Shown here: positions 37,426 to 41,470 of the stretch, piece by piece
Numbering within the stretch: the first letter of the stretch is position 1
Layout: each line of letters starts with the position of its first letter
Assembly (NCBI GenBank): GCA_022729235.1
Contig: JALDAJ010000001.1
Span: 514,442 to 578,441 of the forward strand
From: Candidatus Nanohalarchaeota archaeon
GTDB lineage: Archaea > Nanohalarchaeota > Nanosalinia > Nanosalinales > Nanosalinaceae
DNA length: 64,000 nt
Direction of reading: 5' to 3'
Made by a program: the position numbers and the translations under genes
Notes under the pieces: model-generated
Seen by the model: only the letters and a program-made list of their open reading frames with translations
Databases searched by the model: none
What the model was told of the DNA's origin: nothing

Positions 37426-39330
37426 TCAGAGCCCGGGCATCACGTCGGCAACTATCTCTCTTATCATCGATCTTATCTCTTCATCCTGGAGAAGTTCCTG
37501 GATGAAATCTCTTGCCCGCGCCATCTGAATATCTTCCCCTACCTCTTCAACCACTGCGTGAGCCTCCTCTACTTCGTGTTCTTCCAGCAGAAGCCGTTCG
37601 GCTTCGTCAATCTGTTGAACATGTTCTTCTTCCAGTTCATCTCTATCTCTTAGTCTTTCAATATTCTGGTAAGTATCCTCCGCCATTTTAATTCTCTGCA
37701 GGTCTTCCTGGCCCTCCTTTGTCTCTCTCAGTTCTTCTAGTGTATTCTGGAACTCTGCTTCGGTTATCTCTCCTTCAGCTACTTGACCGGCTTCTTCATA
37801 TGCCTGATCAAATAAGTCTTGAACTTCTTCCGATCTTTCGTATGTAAGTTCGTCTTCCAGTTCTTCAGGAAGTCCGTCTCTCTGGATCTGGCGTTCCATT
37901 CTCGTGTCCATCATTCTCACTGTTCTATCGTCTGTTTCTGCATATTTGCTCTCGATTCTCTCAATCTGTCGGTAGTACTGCATAATTTCTTGCATCTCTT
38001 CCTGGTGCTGATGCATCTGGTCGTTTAACTGTGAAAGTTCTCTTTCCGCGGCTCCAGTCTCTCCCTGATTCAGGAGGTATTCTACCTCGCTTTTCTGACT
38101 GCTTATGTCTTCAGATCCTTCTATACCGGCTCTTTCCATCTGCTCGATTCTCTCCTCCATTTCTCCAAGGTTTCGTTGGATTTCATAGCTTTCTACTATG
38201 TTCCTGGCTTCAGCGACTTCGTAGTCTTCTAGATGGTTCTGCACATCCACTCTCATTTCCTGGACCTCGTCCTCTGATAGATCAGTTCTTCTTTCCAGTC
38301 TGTCCAGCTCGTCAAGGATGCGGTCCTCCGATCTCTCCTTTTCCTGGTGAATGTCGCAACTTACAGGAATCTCCTCCCATCCAGGAGGTATAGGGTCATC
38401 TTCTTCCAGTTCCTCGCAGCTCCCGTCAGGACCTGCCGCGAAACGTCCATGTTCTAAGCCTTCGGGATCTCCTGCTATAGCTATCATTTCTCCATCTTCT
38501 ACGCTTGTATCTGCTTCCCTGTCAGTTCTCAGGTCTAGGTGCTCTTTTGAACCTCTTCTTATGTCTGAATCGATTCTATTCCAGTCACCGCCTTCTATAC
38601 GGTAGAAGCTTACGTCGGCGTGTCTCCGTGTTATGAAAAGGTCGTTGCTTGAAACCCATGCGCTGGAAACGTCCGCATCGATGTAAAGCTCGATAACATC
38701 GAGATTTTCACCGGAGACCTCTACAACGCTGTAAACGACGAGATCATCAGGTAAATCATAGTCTGTTTCCTCTTCCAGCTCTACTACTACACCTCCCCTA
38801 TCTCTTGTATCTCTGGCAGGTTGAACGGTTACTTCATGCCACGCGGATATGGACTCTCCCAGTAACACTCCCGGTCTTTCACGCAGTTCTTCTCCTGAAA
38901 CTGTTATCTCCGCACCTGAATCATGATAATCAACTTCGAAACCTTCAACGTCTGGATCGAAAACTGGCTCGGGTTCTGGTTCGTCAACTACTTCTTCGCC
39001 AGTTACATTTATGTCTTCAGAAAGACCGGTCACGGTGTCCGCATCGGCATCCATTACTCTAACTCTTAGCCTCTCCTCCTCGCCCGTAACCCGGTGCTGG
39101 AAGTATGGATCTCCGGTTCTGTAAGACTGACCGTCTATCCGGAAAATAAACCTGTAGTTTTCTTCCACGTCTTCAGGAAGATCTACACGGCTCTCAAGGA
39201 TCTCTCCTATCTCATACTTTTCCTGGTCAAAAACCAGCTCAAAATCTTCTTCCTCGACTTCTGCTGTTGCTGAAAGAGTTAAAGCCAGTATGAAGATTCC
39301 AAGTACGGCTATACGTATTTTATATCTCAC
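37426..39330 (-). CDS. Secreted coiled-coil protein with PGF-pre-PGF-like domain
   Basis: 634 residues. The signal peptide is IRIAVLGIFILALTLSATAE. It has an N-terminal Ig-like domain (about 25-115). A domain at about 125-320 with VVYSVVEVSGENLDVIELYI, SSAWVSSNDLF and DVSFYRIEGGDWNRI resembles PGF-pre-PGF. Then comes a long Glu/Arg-rich coiled coil (about 340-634; DELDRLERRTDLSEDEVQEM and many similar heptads). There is no C-terminal anchor. It resembles part of the 17.6-19.4 kb surface protein, and could form a rod on the cell surface. Exact role unknown. Confidence 0.75.
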   Translation of the reverse strand: MRYKIRIAVLGIFILALTLSATAEVEEEDFELVFDQEKYEIGEILESRVDLPEDVEENYRFIFRIDGQSYRTGDPYFQHRVTGEEERLRVRVMDADADTVTGLSEDINVTGEEVVDEPEPEPVFDPDVEGFEVDYHDSGAEITVSGEELRERPGVLLGESISAWHEVTVQPARDTRDRGGVVVELEEETDYDLPDDLVVYSVVEVSGENLDVIELYIDADVSSAWVSSNDLFITRRHADVSFYRIEGGDWNRIDSDIRRGSKEHLDLRTDREADTSVEDGEMIAIAGDPEGLEHGRFAAGPDGSCEELEEDDPIPPGWEEIPVSCDIHQEKERSEDRILDELDRLERRTDLSEDEVQEMRVDVQNHLEDYEVAEARNIVESYEIQRNLGEMEERIEQMERAGIEGSEDISSQKSEVEYLLNQGETGAAERELSQLNDQMHQHQEEMQEIMQYYRQIERIESKYAETDDRTVRMMDTRMERQIQRDGLPEELEDELTYERSEEVQDLFDQAYEEAGQVAEGEITEAEFQNTLEELRETKEGQEDLQRIKMAEDTYQNIERLRDRDELEEEHVQQIDEAERLLLEEHEVEEAHAVVEEVGEDIQMARARDFIQELLQDEEIRSMIREIVADVMPGL

Positions 39331-39375
39331 AAATCAACTTGAGAGTTTGTTTTATTAAAAACCTGAGGAGGGATA

Positions 39376-39406
39376 TGGCGGGGGGGTGATTTGAACCCTT
39401 ATCACG
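39376..39406 (-). repeat. Degenerate tRNA-Pro 3'-end copy (outermost)
   Basis: 39376-39398 matches the last 23 bases of the tRNA-Pro gene at 19 of 23 positions, in the same orientation. The T-arm is broken, so it is not a working tRNA end. The following bases to 39406 (ttatcacg) are shared exactly with the copy at 40332, so the two copies have a 19-base identical core (39388-39406 and 40344-40362). A 10-bp palindrome (gactgattta/taaatcagtc) follows at once. Confidence 0.65.
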
Positions 39407-39505
39407 ACTGATTTAGTAAATCAGTCACGAATTAACGGTTTAATAAACGGCTAAGGCCGGATATTCAACCTATTAAGGCATGTTCTATGTCAGTATAGTT
39501 CGAAA

Positions 39506-39519
39506 TAATCACGTGATTA
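39506..39519. repeat. 14-bp perfect palindrome in the island
   Basis: TAATCACGTGATTA equals its own reverse complement. It lies in the 224-base gap between the coiled-coil gene and a small membrane gene, where otherwise only the tRNA-end copy and A/T-rich sequence are seen. Confidence 0.4.
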
Positions 39520-39554
39520 ACTCCTAATAGAACTCCTTGTAAAGCGAAACTTTC

Positions 39555-39776
39555 TCAGGGTAATAGGTCTTCAGTATTATCCGAATTAATTCCTTTTCTA
39601 TCCATATACCATAATCCTGCTCTAGCAGCTATGCCTGCAACGATGAGACTTATAGCAAATGTAGGGTCTCCACTAGCATCAAGCTCTCTACCTCTCCAAC
39701 TTCCTTGTATAAGAACAATACCTAAAATTATAGGAACATAAGTCAGTCTTGTTATAGTGGTTTTGAGGAAGGACAT
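39555..39776 (-). CDS. Small two-helix membrane protein (island gene)
   Basis: 73 residues with helices around LTYVPIILGIVLIQGS and TFAISLIVAGIAARAGLWYM. It is more A/T-rich than the neighbouring core genes. No family recognised. It lies between two tRNA-end copies, so it is likely cargo of an integrated element. Confidence 0.5.
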   Translation of the reverse strand: MSFLKTTITRLTYVPIILGIVLIQGSWRGRELDASGDPTFAISLIVAGIAARAGLWYMDRKGINSDNTEDLLP

Positions 39777-39826
39777 AGTATTGTTTTGAAGTATGAAAAT
39801 TATCGCTTAAAAATATTTGTGATGAG

Positions 39827-39875
39827 GGAGCTATTTTCTATCATAATATGGAGTTTACTTAGAATTAATAGCTCC
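39827..39875. repeat. Inverted repeat between two island genes
   Basis: GGAGCTATT (39827-39835) and AATAGCTCC (39867-39875) are perfect 9-base arms around 31 bases. The remainder of the 183-base gap is A/T-rich, with likely promoters only. Confidence 0.4.
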
Positions 39876-39959
39876 AATCATAGTCTATATGAATAATATT
39901 TAGCCTCTGAACTTGTACATAGATATTTTGGATTCTAATACAAAATAGTTATCATTCTT

Positions 39960-40241
39960 TCATTTTGAGGTTGCAATCTTTAGTGTAAAAGCTATAGGTA
40001 GGATAAAAACGCCTATCATGGAAAAAACAAAGACAGCTATACCTAGATAGATATTAAGGTGCATGATAAGTCCACTTAACATTGCTAGAGCTATTATAGT
40101 CAAATGGTATTTGAAAGCATATTTGGAATGCTTTTTAGCGTATTCGCTTTCACTGATAAAATATATGGCGGCTGGAAGGATTACAGGAGCAAACCATATT
40201 GAAAAATGGCTAAGAATTGAAATCAGTTTTTCATTCTCCAT
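39960..40241 (-). CDS. DUF4870-like small membrane protein (island gene)
   Basis: 93 residues. The start LISILSHFSIWFAPVILPAAIYFI, then SKYAFKYHLTIIALAML and another hydrophobic pair resemble the DUF4870/Tic20-like pattern (LSHLS...PLIIW...H..EALNFQ). Three membrane helices. The codon use is strikingly A/T-rich. Sited between tRNA-end copies, hence probably mobile cargo. Confidence 0.5.
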   Translation of the reverse strand: MENEKLISILSHFSIWFAPVILPAAIYFISESEYAKKHSKYAFKYHLTIIALAMLSGLIMHLNIYLGIAVFVFSMIGVFILPIAFTLKIATSK

Positions 40242-40331
40242 GAATAATCAGACTTTTTTCATGATTTAAATAACCTGATTTCTAGCTTCCAGAGTTTTCG
40301 AGTTAGAGGTCTTGATACTGGTTAATTTGGT

Positions 40332-40354
40332 TGGCAGGGCTGGGATTTGAACCC
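40332..40354 (-). repeat. Exact 23-bp copy of the tRNA-Pro 3' end
   Basis: 40332-40354 is identical over 23 bases to 41185-41207, the T-loop to discriminator base of the tRNA-Pro gene, and lies 853 bases away on its 3' side in the same orientation. Beyond base 23 the sequences diverge at once on both sides. This is the expected form of a displaced attachment site. The span between contains a toxin-antitoxin pair. Confidence 0.75.
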
Positions 40355-40430
40355 TTATCACGGCTAGGGATGAGTTCCAAGGCGTAGTTATTTATTATTT
40401 TATGACATCATTATAAACTGTGATAAACTT

Positions 40431-40676
40431 ATGCCGACTGTCAGTGTAAACATCCCTGAGAAAATGAAGGAAAAGATGAAGGAACTGAGCGAGGAAGGGA
40501 TGTATCAGAATGAATCTGAGTACATCCGTGAAGCTCTTAGGAACAAGATCATGTCTGATACTGGTTTGACTCCTGAAGAGGAAGAACTAGTTGTAGAAAG
40601 ACTTCAAAGAATGGATGAAAGAGAGAAAAAGGGTAAAACTCTGGAAGAGCTGTCCGAGGAACTTGGTTTAGAATAG
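40431..40676 (+). CDS. Ribbon-helix-helix antitoxin (ParD/CopG-like)
   Basis: 81 residues. N-terminal strand PTVSVNIPEKMKEKMKEL then the helix pair NESEYIREALRNKIM is a classic RHH DNA-binding fold. The C-terminal helix EEEELVVERLQRMDE would bind the toxin. The next gene starts on the base after its stop. It is inside the tRNA-bounded island. Confidence 0.8.
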   Translation: MPTVSVNIPEKMKEKMKELSEEGMYQNESEYIREALRNKIMSDTGLTPEEEELVVERLQRMDEREKKGKTLEELSEELGLE

Positions 40677-40973
40677 ATGGAGTTAGTTGTAGAGCCTGAA
40701 GCTGAAGATGACTTGACGCAGTTTAAAGAAGAGCATCAGCAGTATGTATTGGAGCAGTTGAAAGAATTGAAACAAAGTCCTACTGGTCATGAAAGTTCTG
40801 ATACCATCCGTGTTAAGGGAAGACCTGTGTTCAAATATAAGATGAAGGAGGGTGATAGAGGTGGTAAAGATTTTAGGGCTGTCTACGATATAATTGATAG
40901 TGAGGTCCGAGTTGTAGCTATTTTCCATAGAGATACAGGTTATGACAAGGAAGAGCTGTCTGAAAGGCTTTAA
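40677..40973 (+). CDS. RelE/ParE-family toxin
   Basis: 98 residues. LVVEPEAEDDLTQFKEEHQQ, then RVKGRPVFKYKM, DFRAVYDIIDSEVRVVAIFHR and GYDKEELSERL follow the RelE/ParE fold order (two helices, four-stranded sheet). RelE-type members cut mRNA on the ribosome. It is immediately behind the RHH gene, forming a type II toxin-antitoxin unit that could stabilise the island. Confidence 0.8.
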   Translation: MELVVEPEAEDDLTQFKEEHQQYVLEQLKELKQSPTGHESSDTIRVKGRPVFKYKMKEGDRGGKDFRAVYDIIDSEVRVVAIFHRDTGYDKEELSERL

Positions 40974-41008
40974 ACTCGTTTAAGTTATTTATCTATTTCT
41001 CTTTGGCG

Positions 41009-41026
41009 GAAAAAACTAGTTTTTTC
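41009..41026 (+). terminator. A/T palindrome with T-tract after the RelE gene
   Basis: GAAAAAACTAGTTTTTTC is a perfect 18-bp palindrome, 36 bases after the toxin stop, followed by more T residues. The T-rich strand is as expected for an archaeal terminator. Confidence 0.5.
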
Positions 41027-41059
41027 TTTTCAGAAGGATTAATAATAGAAAAAATGCGT

Positions 41060-41122
41060 TAGCAGAGCTGGGATTTGAACCCCAGCCGCAAATCGGAGAT
41101 TTGCTTGACGGCATCAAATCTT
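41060..41122 (-). repeat. tRNA-like repeat unit with 3'-end copy (21/23) and hairpin
   Basis: 41060-41082 matches the tRNA-Pro 3' end at 21 of 23 bases. The rest of the 63-base unit contains the hairpin GCAAATC-GGA-GATTTGC (41088-41104). It aligns along its whole length with the adjacent unit 41123-41184. No acceptor 5' half or D-arm can be found, so it is not a complete tRNA. Confidence 0.6.
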
Positions 41123-41184
41123 GGGCAGGGCCGCGATTTGAACTCACGCGAAAATCGAAGATTTTCTAAGTGGTTCTAAATCCA
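41123..41184 (-). repeat. tRNA-like repeat unit with 3'-end copy (19/23) and hairpin
   Basis: A 62-base unit that abuts the intact tRNA. 41123-41145 matches the tRNA 3' end at 19 of 23 bases. It contains GAAAATC-GAA-GATTTTC (41150-41166). Compared with its neighbour, the stem bases differ on both arms so that pairing is kept. Confidence 0.6.
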
Positions 41185-41257
41185 TGGCAGGGCTGGGATT
41201 TGAACCCAGGTCCGTACCGCCCCGGGGTACGATGATAGTCCACTACACTACCCCGCC
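41185..41257 (-). tRNA. tRNA-Pro (anticodon GGG)
   Basis: Complete cloverleaf. The acceptor stem GGCGGGG/CCCTGCC has one G-T pair. The short D-stem GTG/CAT matches those of archaeal tRNAs. The anticodon stem is GTACC/GGTAC with loop CCGGGGC, and the T-arm is CTGGG-TTCAAAT-CCCAG. The discriminator is A73. Anticodon GGG (41223-41221) with G37 and A73 fits proline. The loop has C33 instead of the near-universal U33, which is odd. No CCA is encoded and no intron is needed. Four copies of its 3' end follow downstream. Confidence 0.85.
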
Positions 41258-41414
41258 AAAATCACCTTACGCGATTTTGTGTGGATACAAAAACTCTCGC
41301 GAGTTTCGCACCCGCCGAACTTCTGAACTCGAAGACCTAGAGAGTCTTCTGTGACCAGCAACCTCGGAGAGGTTGCGGAGGTTCGATCATCATAAGGCAT
41401 TCAAAGAATGCCTT
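41258..41414. repeat. Cluster of short hairpins upstream of tRNA-Pro
   Basis: Within the 213-base gap between the tRNA and the phosphatase gene I see five perfect stems in a row. AAAATC/GATTTT is at 41258-41278 and AAACTC-TCGC-GAGTTT at 41291-41306. GAAGAC/GTCTTC is at 41331-41349, GCAACCTC-GGA-GAGGTTGC at 41358-41376, and AAGGCATT-CAAAG-AATGCCTT at 41394-41414. The stem sequences differ but pairing is perfect. The promoter of the phosphatase gene (ttttaaac, about 41439-41446) and the palindrome GACCGCGGTC (41450-41459) follow. Confidence 0.5.
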
Positions 41415-41470
41415 CCAGTAGGATAGTCGCAGAGTAAAATTTTAAACGTGACCGCGGTCTTCTCGGATTC

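Follow-up and report, generated by a model that had tools for sequence, protein, structure and literature searches.

The tRNA-Pro(GGG) locus

The window, which is the whole stretch of 64,000 nucleotides that was analysed, contains an intact tRNA-Pro(GGG) gene and four copies of its terminal 23 nucleotides (reference sequence GGGTTCAAATCCCAGCCCTGCCA), all of which lie 3' of the tRNA and on its strand (Table 1). Identity to the reference is 19/23 for the copy at 41123, 21/23 at 41060, 23/23 at 40332 and 19/23 at 39376; these coordinates and identities, first given in a preliminary description of the locus, were confirmed by re-reading the sequence and by ARAGORN and Rfam, and the one-sided (3') arrangement in a single orientation was borne out by a mismatch search. 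Apart from the tRNA, the copies at 40332 and 41060 are the only matches in the window with up to three mismatches to the reference, against an expectation of 0.00 (100 shuffles), and the exact 23-mer occurs in the whole 1.03-Mb genome only in tRNA-Pro(GGG) and at 40332. Besides the tRNA, Rfam gave no trustworthy match.

Table 1. Features in and around the array of tRNA-Pro(GGG) 3'-end copies (window coordinates)
Feature	Position	Strand	Evidence or remark
Diverged (19/23) copy, also with GTGATAA arm, adjoining palindrome at ~39407-39427	39376..39405	-	
73-aa ORF, possibly a membrane protein	39555..39776	-	Without Pfam match
Small membrane protein, DUF4870, 93 aa	39960..40241	-	PF09685 4.8e-07
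Exact 23-nt tRNA-Pro 3'-end copy after arm GTGATAA	40332..40361	-	
RHH (CopG/ParD-like) antitoxin, 81 aa	40431..40676	+	PF01402 7e-06; ParD-family model below cut-off
ParE-type toxin, 98 aa	40677..40973	+	PF05016 2.6e-05, above cut-off
Closing copy of cassette 2, tRNA-Pro positions 54-73 (41060 copy, 21/23)	41060..41079	-	
Cassette 2: GATTTGA, hairpin GCAAATC-tcc-GATTTGC	41080..41121	-	Pattern-search match G000:C1:555513-555561 = window 41072-41120
Closing copy of cassette 1, tRNA-Pro positions 54-73 (41123 copy, 19/23)	41122..41142	-	
Cassette 1, non-coding: GGATTT motif and hairpin GAAAATC-ttc-GATTTTC	41143..41184	-	Sequence
tRNA-Pro(GGG), intact	41185..41257	-	ARAGORN; Rfam RF00005 48.6 bits
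Hairpin-rich tRNA-Pro leader, possible short 5'-end copy (GGCGGGTG)	41258..41440	-	Upstream score only 14; alone not significant

The two proximal units, each consisting of a cassette and its closing copy, are non-coding and 62-63 nt long, and the hairpins of cassettes 1 and 2 differ by a two-sided pair change. The comparison with relatives covered 28 genomes of the phylum, with one genome per species. A unit designed like cassette 1 stands behind the tRNA-Pro of one of them (G002), and an RqcH-like gene is syntenic with tRNA-Pro(GGG) in four (G002, G009, G015 and G016). None of the genes of the left flank has a counterpart beside tRNA-Pro in the relatives and, since this flank is not conserved, an empty site for the window locus cannot be drawn. 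A 634-aa protein encoded at 37426-39330, with a hydrophobic start and a charged, coiled-coil-like C-terminal half, has no Pfam match and likewise no counterpart beside tRNA-Pro in the relatives.

The distal copies at 40332 and 39376 have in common the 18-mer GTGATAAGGGTTCAAATC (39388-39405 in the latter). From 39376 to 41059 the DNA forms a GC trough (0.34-0.38, against a 1-kb mean of 0.495 with a standard deviation of 0.034 for the window), which agrees with the A+T richness initially noted and marks 39331-41059 as compositionally foreign. The matches to DUF4870, PF01402 and PF05016 similarly support the small membrane protein or proteins and the RHH/toxin pair that had been placed between the copies, and no integrase was seen there among the open reading frames or by Pfam, as previously stated. 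A parallel exists downstream of tRNA-Pro(TGG) of the same genome (G000:C1:156000-159700), where 3'-end copies occur at +878 and ~3.1 kb and HEPN, RHH-ParE and PIN genes lie in or next to the stretch. Judged from these sequence features, the two distal copies appear to fit conventional integrative debris better, and it is reasonable to regard them as probable separate remains at the same tRNA-Pro.

Own-end copies and cassettes at other tRNA genes

Pairs of matches to the T-loop core GTTCRAATC, 49-78 nt apart, are found genome-wide at other tRNA genes. Inspection of the flanks of 35 tRNAs of the genome under study (G000) revealed copies of the tRNA's own 3' end in the trailers of Lys (twice), Phe, Trp, Cys, Gly, Ser, Leu(TAA), Glu, Asp and Pro, and copies of its own 5' end in the leaders of Leu(TAG), Leu(GAG), Tyr, Gln and, more weakly, Pro(TGG). 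The terminal 12 nt of 161 tRNAs from five genomes were then used as probes, allowing at most one mismatch and, for 3' ends, a distance of up to 170 nt downstream: the own 3' end recurred downstream in 18/161 tRNAs, against an average of 0.03 for the ends of other isotypes, and the own 5' end recurred upstream in 14/161 (0.15 for other-isotype ends), with no copy of either kind on the wrong side or on the reverse strand. This own-end specificity is a direct observation, and independent scoring of 131 tRNAs by local alignment gave the same picture. Most isotypes of the genome and of the order can carry own-end copies, and most tRNAs lack them.

The borders of the copies are sharp, as seen directly in the alignments. 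In 36 trailer copies, identity to the tRNA stays high between T54 and base 73 and drops towards background on either side; 15 leader copies share a block from base 2 to 14/15, this mirror-image class spanning positions 1-14/15. The duplicated segments therefore have one border at the tRNA terminus and the other in the T-loop or the D-loop and, since the terminal 12 bases served for detection, it is the inner borders that the alignments establish independently.

The 3' copies delimit a family of non-coding cassettes of ~40-150 nt, composed of a spacer, GATTTGA and a hairpin, which lie 3' of tRNAs of 14 isotypes and each of which closes with a copy of positions 54-73 of the adjoining tRNA. Their anatomy can be read directly: often a small hairpin comes immediately after the tRNA, followed by GATTTGA or a variant and then by a GAAnn...nnTTC hairpin. 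The pattern GATTTGA-N(6-36)-TCAAATC occurs at 34 places in the 28 genomes, distributed over three families of the order (f1, f3 and f5), compared with two places for the reversed pattern; in the stretches examined, all but three of these places follow a same-strand tRNA at a distance of 4-111 nt on its 3' side, and most run straight into the adjacent tRNA's own 3' end. Compared with dinucleotide shuffles, the inner cassette sequences fold better (mean z of -1.44; -0.10 for the control). Likeness between cassettes also crosses isotypes, an equally direct observation: 49 of 595 cassette pairs score higher than any of 300 shuffled comparisons, with 46 of the 49 joining different isotypes, such as Lys/Trp/Phe, Glu/Gly, and Phe of G023 with Ser of G000, which belong to different families. 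The bases beside GATTTG do not follow the T-stem of the tRNA concerned (p = 0.68, 19 units); pairing of GATTTGA as a tRNA-specific antisense, which looks convincing singly for Leu(TAA) and for Ser(TGA) of G009, was rejected at this chance level over the 19 units, and antisense pairing of the motif in leaders was not significant. As cassettes are common to several isotypes and the neighbours of GATTTG are not tRNA-specific, the cassette is generic and only the duplicated end is specific to the tRNA, a combination expected from insertion with target duplication and not from an integrase with one att site. A separate recurring module, TGGTTACGCTCG...CACGCAA with inner hairpins, was observed in introns, leaders and trailers of different tRNAs (G000, G002, G009 and G015).

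Presence and absence of leader cassettes could be followed directly among congeners. The Tyr leader cassette is present in G000, G002, G005, G009 (two in tandem) and G015; G003 and G012, which belong to one genus, retain it in decayed form, and G008, a congener of G015, lacks it. At Lys(CTT) it is again G015 that carries the leader cassette and G008 that does not, the promoter being the same. In both G015/G008 pairs the leader lengths differ by several nucleotides, so that the joints are not clean. At Gly(GCC), G015 carries a trailer copy, in place of which G008 has a short leader copy. The outer copies of Gly(TCC) and Pro(TGG) in G000 visibly retain the acceptor sequence of relatives while the tRNAs themselves have changed, which identifies these copies as fossils and not as maintained parts. 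Among the leaders in which a TATA-like box was found, the outer copy lies 33-43 nt from it in 9/11, the median for tRNAs without leader copies being 41 nt, and the outer copy consequently occupies the normal tRNA start position.

Possible origins of the copies

The proximal copies at 41123 and 41060 are best read as members of the cassette family and not as relics of integrase elements. The best explanation, to which we assign a probability of roughly 0.55, is the repeated insertion of short, protein-free hairpin cassettes at tRNA ends with duplication of the end, the distal copies being separate integrative remains. According to this model, a cassette would insert at a fixed point of the tRNA gene, T54 of the T-loop, and the stretch from T54 to the terminus (positions 54-73) would be duplicated; because the end is duplicated, the tRNA would be left functional, with a second copy of its end on the far side of the cassette. 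The mirror-image class would arise in the same manner at the 5' end, over positions 1 to 14/15, and in both classes an enzyme would act in trans and the outer copies would decay afterwards. We infer that each event was one insertion with target duplication by an enzyme in trans, and likewise the age of the copies and the direction of copying. Neither an insertion enzyme, a free cassette nor a base-exact empty site was found, and gene conversion among flanks could also account for the sharing of cassettes between isotypes. More tentatively, the gene-free hairpin cassettes might constitute an undescribed class of minimal mobile elements of this order, able to use any isotype, inserting in the T- or D-loop with end duplication and forming tandem arrays, with the toxin-antitoxin stretches at tRNA-Pro as its cargo-bearing members; we regard this extension as doubtful.

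The preliminary description had favoured a stack of decayed site-specific elements, each of which left a displaced attB copy at tRNA-Pro through a tyrosine integrase acting in cis or in trans, an origin that we now consider improbable. The att sites of such integrases are known to extend from the T-loop to the tRNA end, as do the copies, and displaced tRNA-end copies beside a regenerated tRNA are indeed what is found; the GC trough with its toxin-antitoxin genes, the 18-nt arm common to the two distal copies and the parallel stretch at tRNA-Pro(TGG) also speak for it. One integrase with one att site, however, cannot yield proximal units of 62-63 nt that are non-coding and follow a design found at 14 isotypes, and a single att specificity is discernible only weakly, in the arm of the distal copies. 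Copy identity outward from the tRNA (19, 21, 23 and 19 of 23) does not follow the young-to-old order of simple accretion, no integrase lies nearby, whether within an element or split by one, and no match to the arm was found in the order or in viral contigs, with a pattern spacing in the order search that was too strict for the exact copy. In the whole genome PF00589 matches only at 841 and 862 kb, and the evidence found ties neither gene to the tRNA-Pro locus; both recombinases match integron/Xer models only below the cut-off. The second, a 461-aa tyrosine recombinase (G000:C1:862694-864053), is encoded on the strand of tRNA-Thr(GGT) and ~0.7 kb downstream of it, and no second copy of the tRNA-Thr(GGT) end is present within 836-874 kb. 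What stands of the earlier proposal is that the copies are real, that leader copies come and go with the tRNA intact, as presence and absence at Tyr and Lys(CTT) show, and that 39331-41059 is compositionally foreign. A single hot spot is not supported, since most isotypes carry copies, most intervals are non-coding hairpin cassettes and a 5' class exists; the refuting alternative envisaged at the time, a repeat family spread widely over the genome, holds in part, as the proximal copies fall within a genome- and order-wide cassette pattern.

It is similarly improbable that the cassettes are functional parts of the precursor tRNA, serving as a folding decoy, a processing signal or a small RNA and kept by selection. 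The folding of the inner hairpins relative to shuffles and the two-sided pair change between the window hairpins would agree with such a role, and some predicted precursor folds pair the 5' strand of the T-arm with the outer copy. The Tyr leader cassette, moreover, is similar in G002, G009 and G015, which represent three genera, and this likeness could mean selection. Against a function in the precursor are the gain, loss and decay of cassettes within genera, the outdated acceptor sequence of some outer copies and the fact that most tRNAs do without them.

Local duplication by template switching or fold-back at tRNA hairpins, with no mobile cassette involved, is very unlikely: a direct copy with an inverted GATTTGA and a hairpin does resemble fold-back products, and borders in the D- and T-loops suit them, but the inverted GATTTGA part is generic and not tRNA-specific, and purely local events would leave unexplained why cassettes of different isotypes and families are related.

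Non-canonical introns of the D- or T-arm, spliced between the two copies, are the least probable source, and canonical bulge-helix-bulge introns are also disfavoured: tRNA introns with comparable hairpins are plentiful in the genome, the D-loop of Gly(GCC) is interrupted and shows a direct repeat, and the outer leader copy keeps the promoter spacing, but a scan able to recover some of the canonical introns, such as that of Cys, detected no bulge-helix-bulge motif joining equivalent points of the copies, except for a self-complementary repeat at Leu(GAG); the tRNA adjoining each cassette is complete without splicing, and some outer copies have ceased to match the acceptor stem. Gly(GCC) is exceptional in a different way. 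The only match to this tRNA in G000 (G000:C1:41423-41560) carries in the D-loop an insert of two hairpins, bordered by the direct repeat GTGGCTAA, and no canonical bulge-helix-bulge was found; from its sequence, the gene would have to be either unusually spliced or dead. Canonical introns of Lys, Arg, Thr, Leu(TAA) and Gln in G000 have a common module, CCTCAAGTTCTCC...GGAGAACGAGGAC with a GAAnn...nnTTC hairpin, and this genome is intron-rich compared with relatives such as G015, which has few introns; the module suggests a recent spread between isotypes.

Three further candidates were discarded. Split or permuted tRNA halves do not apply, as the tRNA beside each cassette is complete, with Gly(GCC) as a separate oddity; 3' halves of class II (Leu/Ser) tRNAs, an idea prompted by the long preceding hairpin, are excluded by the match of each copy to its own tRNA; and CRISPR-like spacer capture was rejected on account of the kinship among the 'spacers'.

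Comparison with known systems and significance

Several known systems resemble the cassettes in part. Integron cassette arrays grow by stepwise insertion at one site and have hairpin-forming borders; stepwise insertion at a single site, hairpin borders and toxin-antitoxin genes at both tRNA-Pro loci recall them here, although most of the present cassettes are gene-free and the likeness extends neither to an attC consensus nor to an integron integrase. Casposons, kilobase-sized elements with cas1 and inverted repeats, target tRNA 3' ends and duplicate the end. The cassettes share the duplication of the 3' end (positions 54-73), the duplicated stretch measuring ~20 nt (3') or 15 nt (5') in their case, and no cas1 was detected by Pfam among the genes at the tRNA-Pro(GGG) locus. 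In the tyrT repeats of E. coli (rtT RNA), tandem copies of the tRNA-Tyr 3' end follow the gene, at one locus and in long repeats; the cassettes share the tandem 3'-end copies downstream of the gene but span many isotypes and genera and have a 5' counterpart.

Among Archaea, integration at tRNA ends by elements of the SSV and pNOB8 types has been discussed (PMC3293823). Such elements are like the cassettes in that the tRNA end is the target, the tRNA stays intact and a copy of the end marks the far border, whereas the cassettes are gene-free, bring one generic sequence to many isotypes and also occur at 5' ends. The nearest published case found is the tRNA-Thr of Caldiarchaeum, in which a 5' fragment lies upstream of the complete tRNA after an insertion that the authors link to the gain of a tRNA intron (Sugahara 2012, PMC3293823); that insertion is 1.8 kb long, coding and confined to one tRNA, whereas the present cassettes are non-coding, measure tens to ~150 nt and occur at many tRNAs. 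The literature searched, with most subscription papers outside its scope, held no description of such cassettes and nothing relevant on tRNA introns or repeats in this clade.

How tRNA genes of Archaea gain introns, split and change their flanks is an open question, for which integration at tRNA genes is one proposed cause. An archaeal order with small genomes is found here to carry dozens of insertion traces at both ends of its tRNA genes and, as occupied and empty sites occur within a genus together with fossil acceptors, the process can be followed step by step. Copies of a tRNA end are by themselves no proof that an integrase element has decayed at the site. Should the cassettes be mobile, they would represent very small elements that duplicate their target and thereby spare it; should they be functional, they would constitute an unknown layer of pre-tRNA structure.
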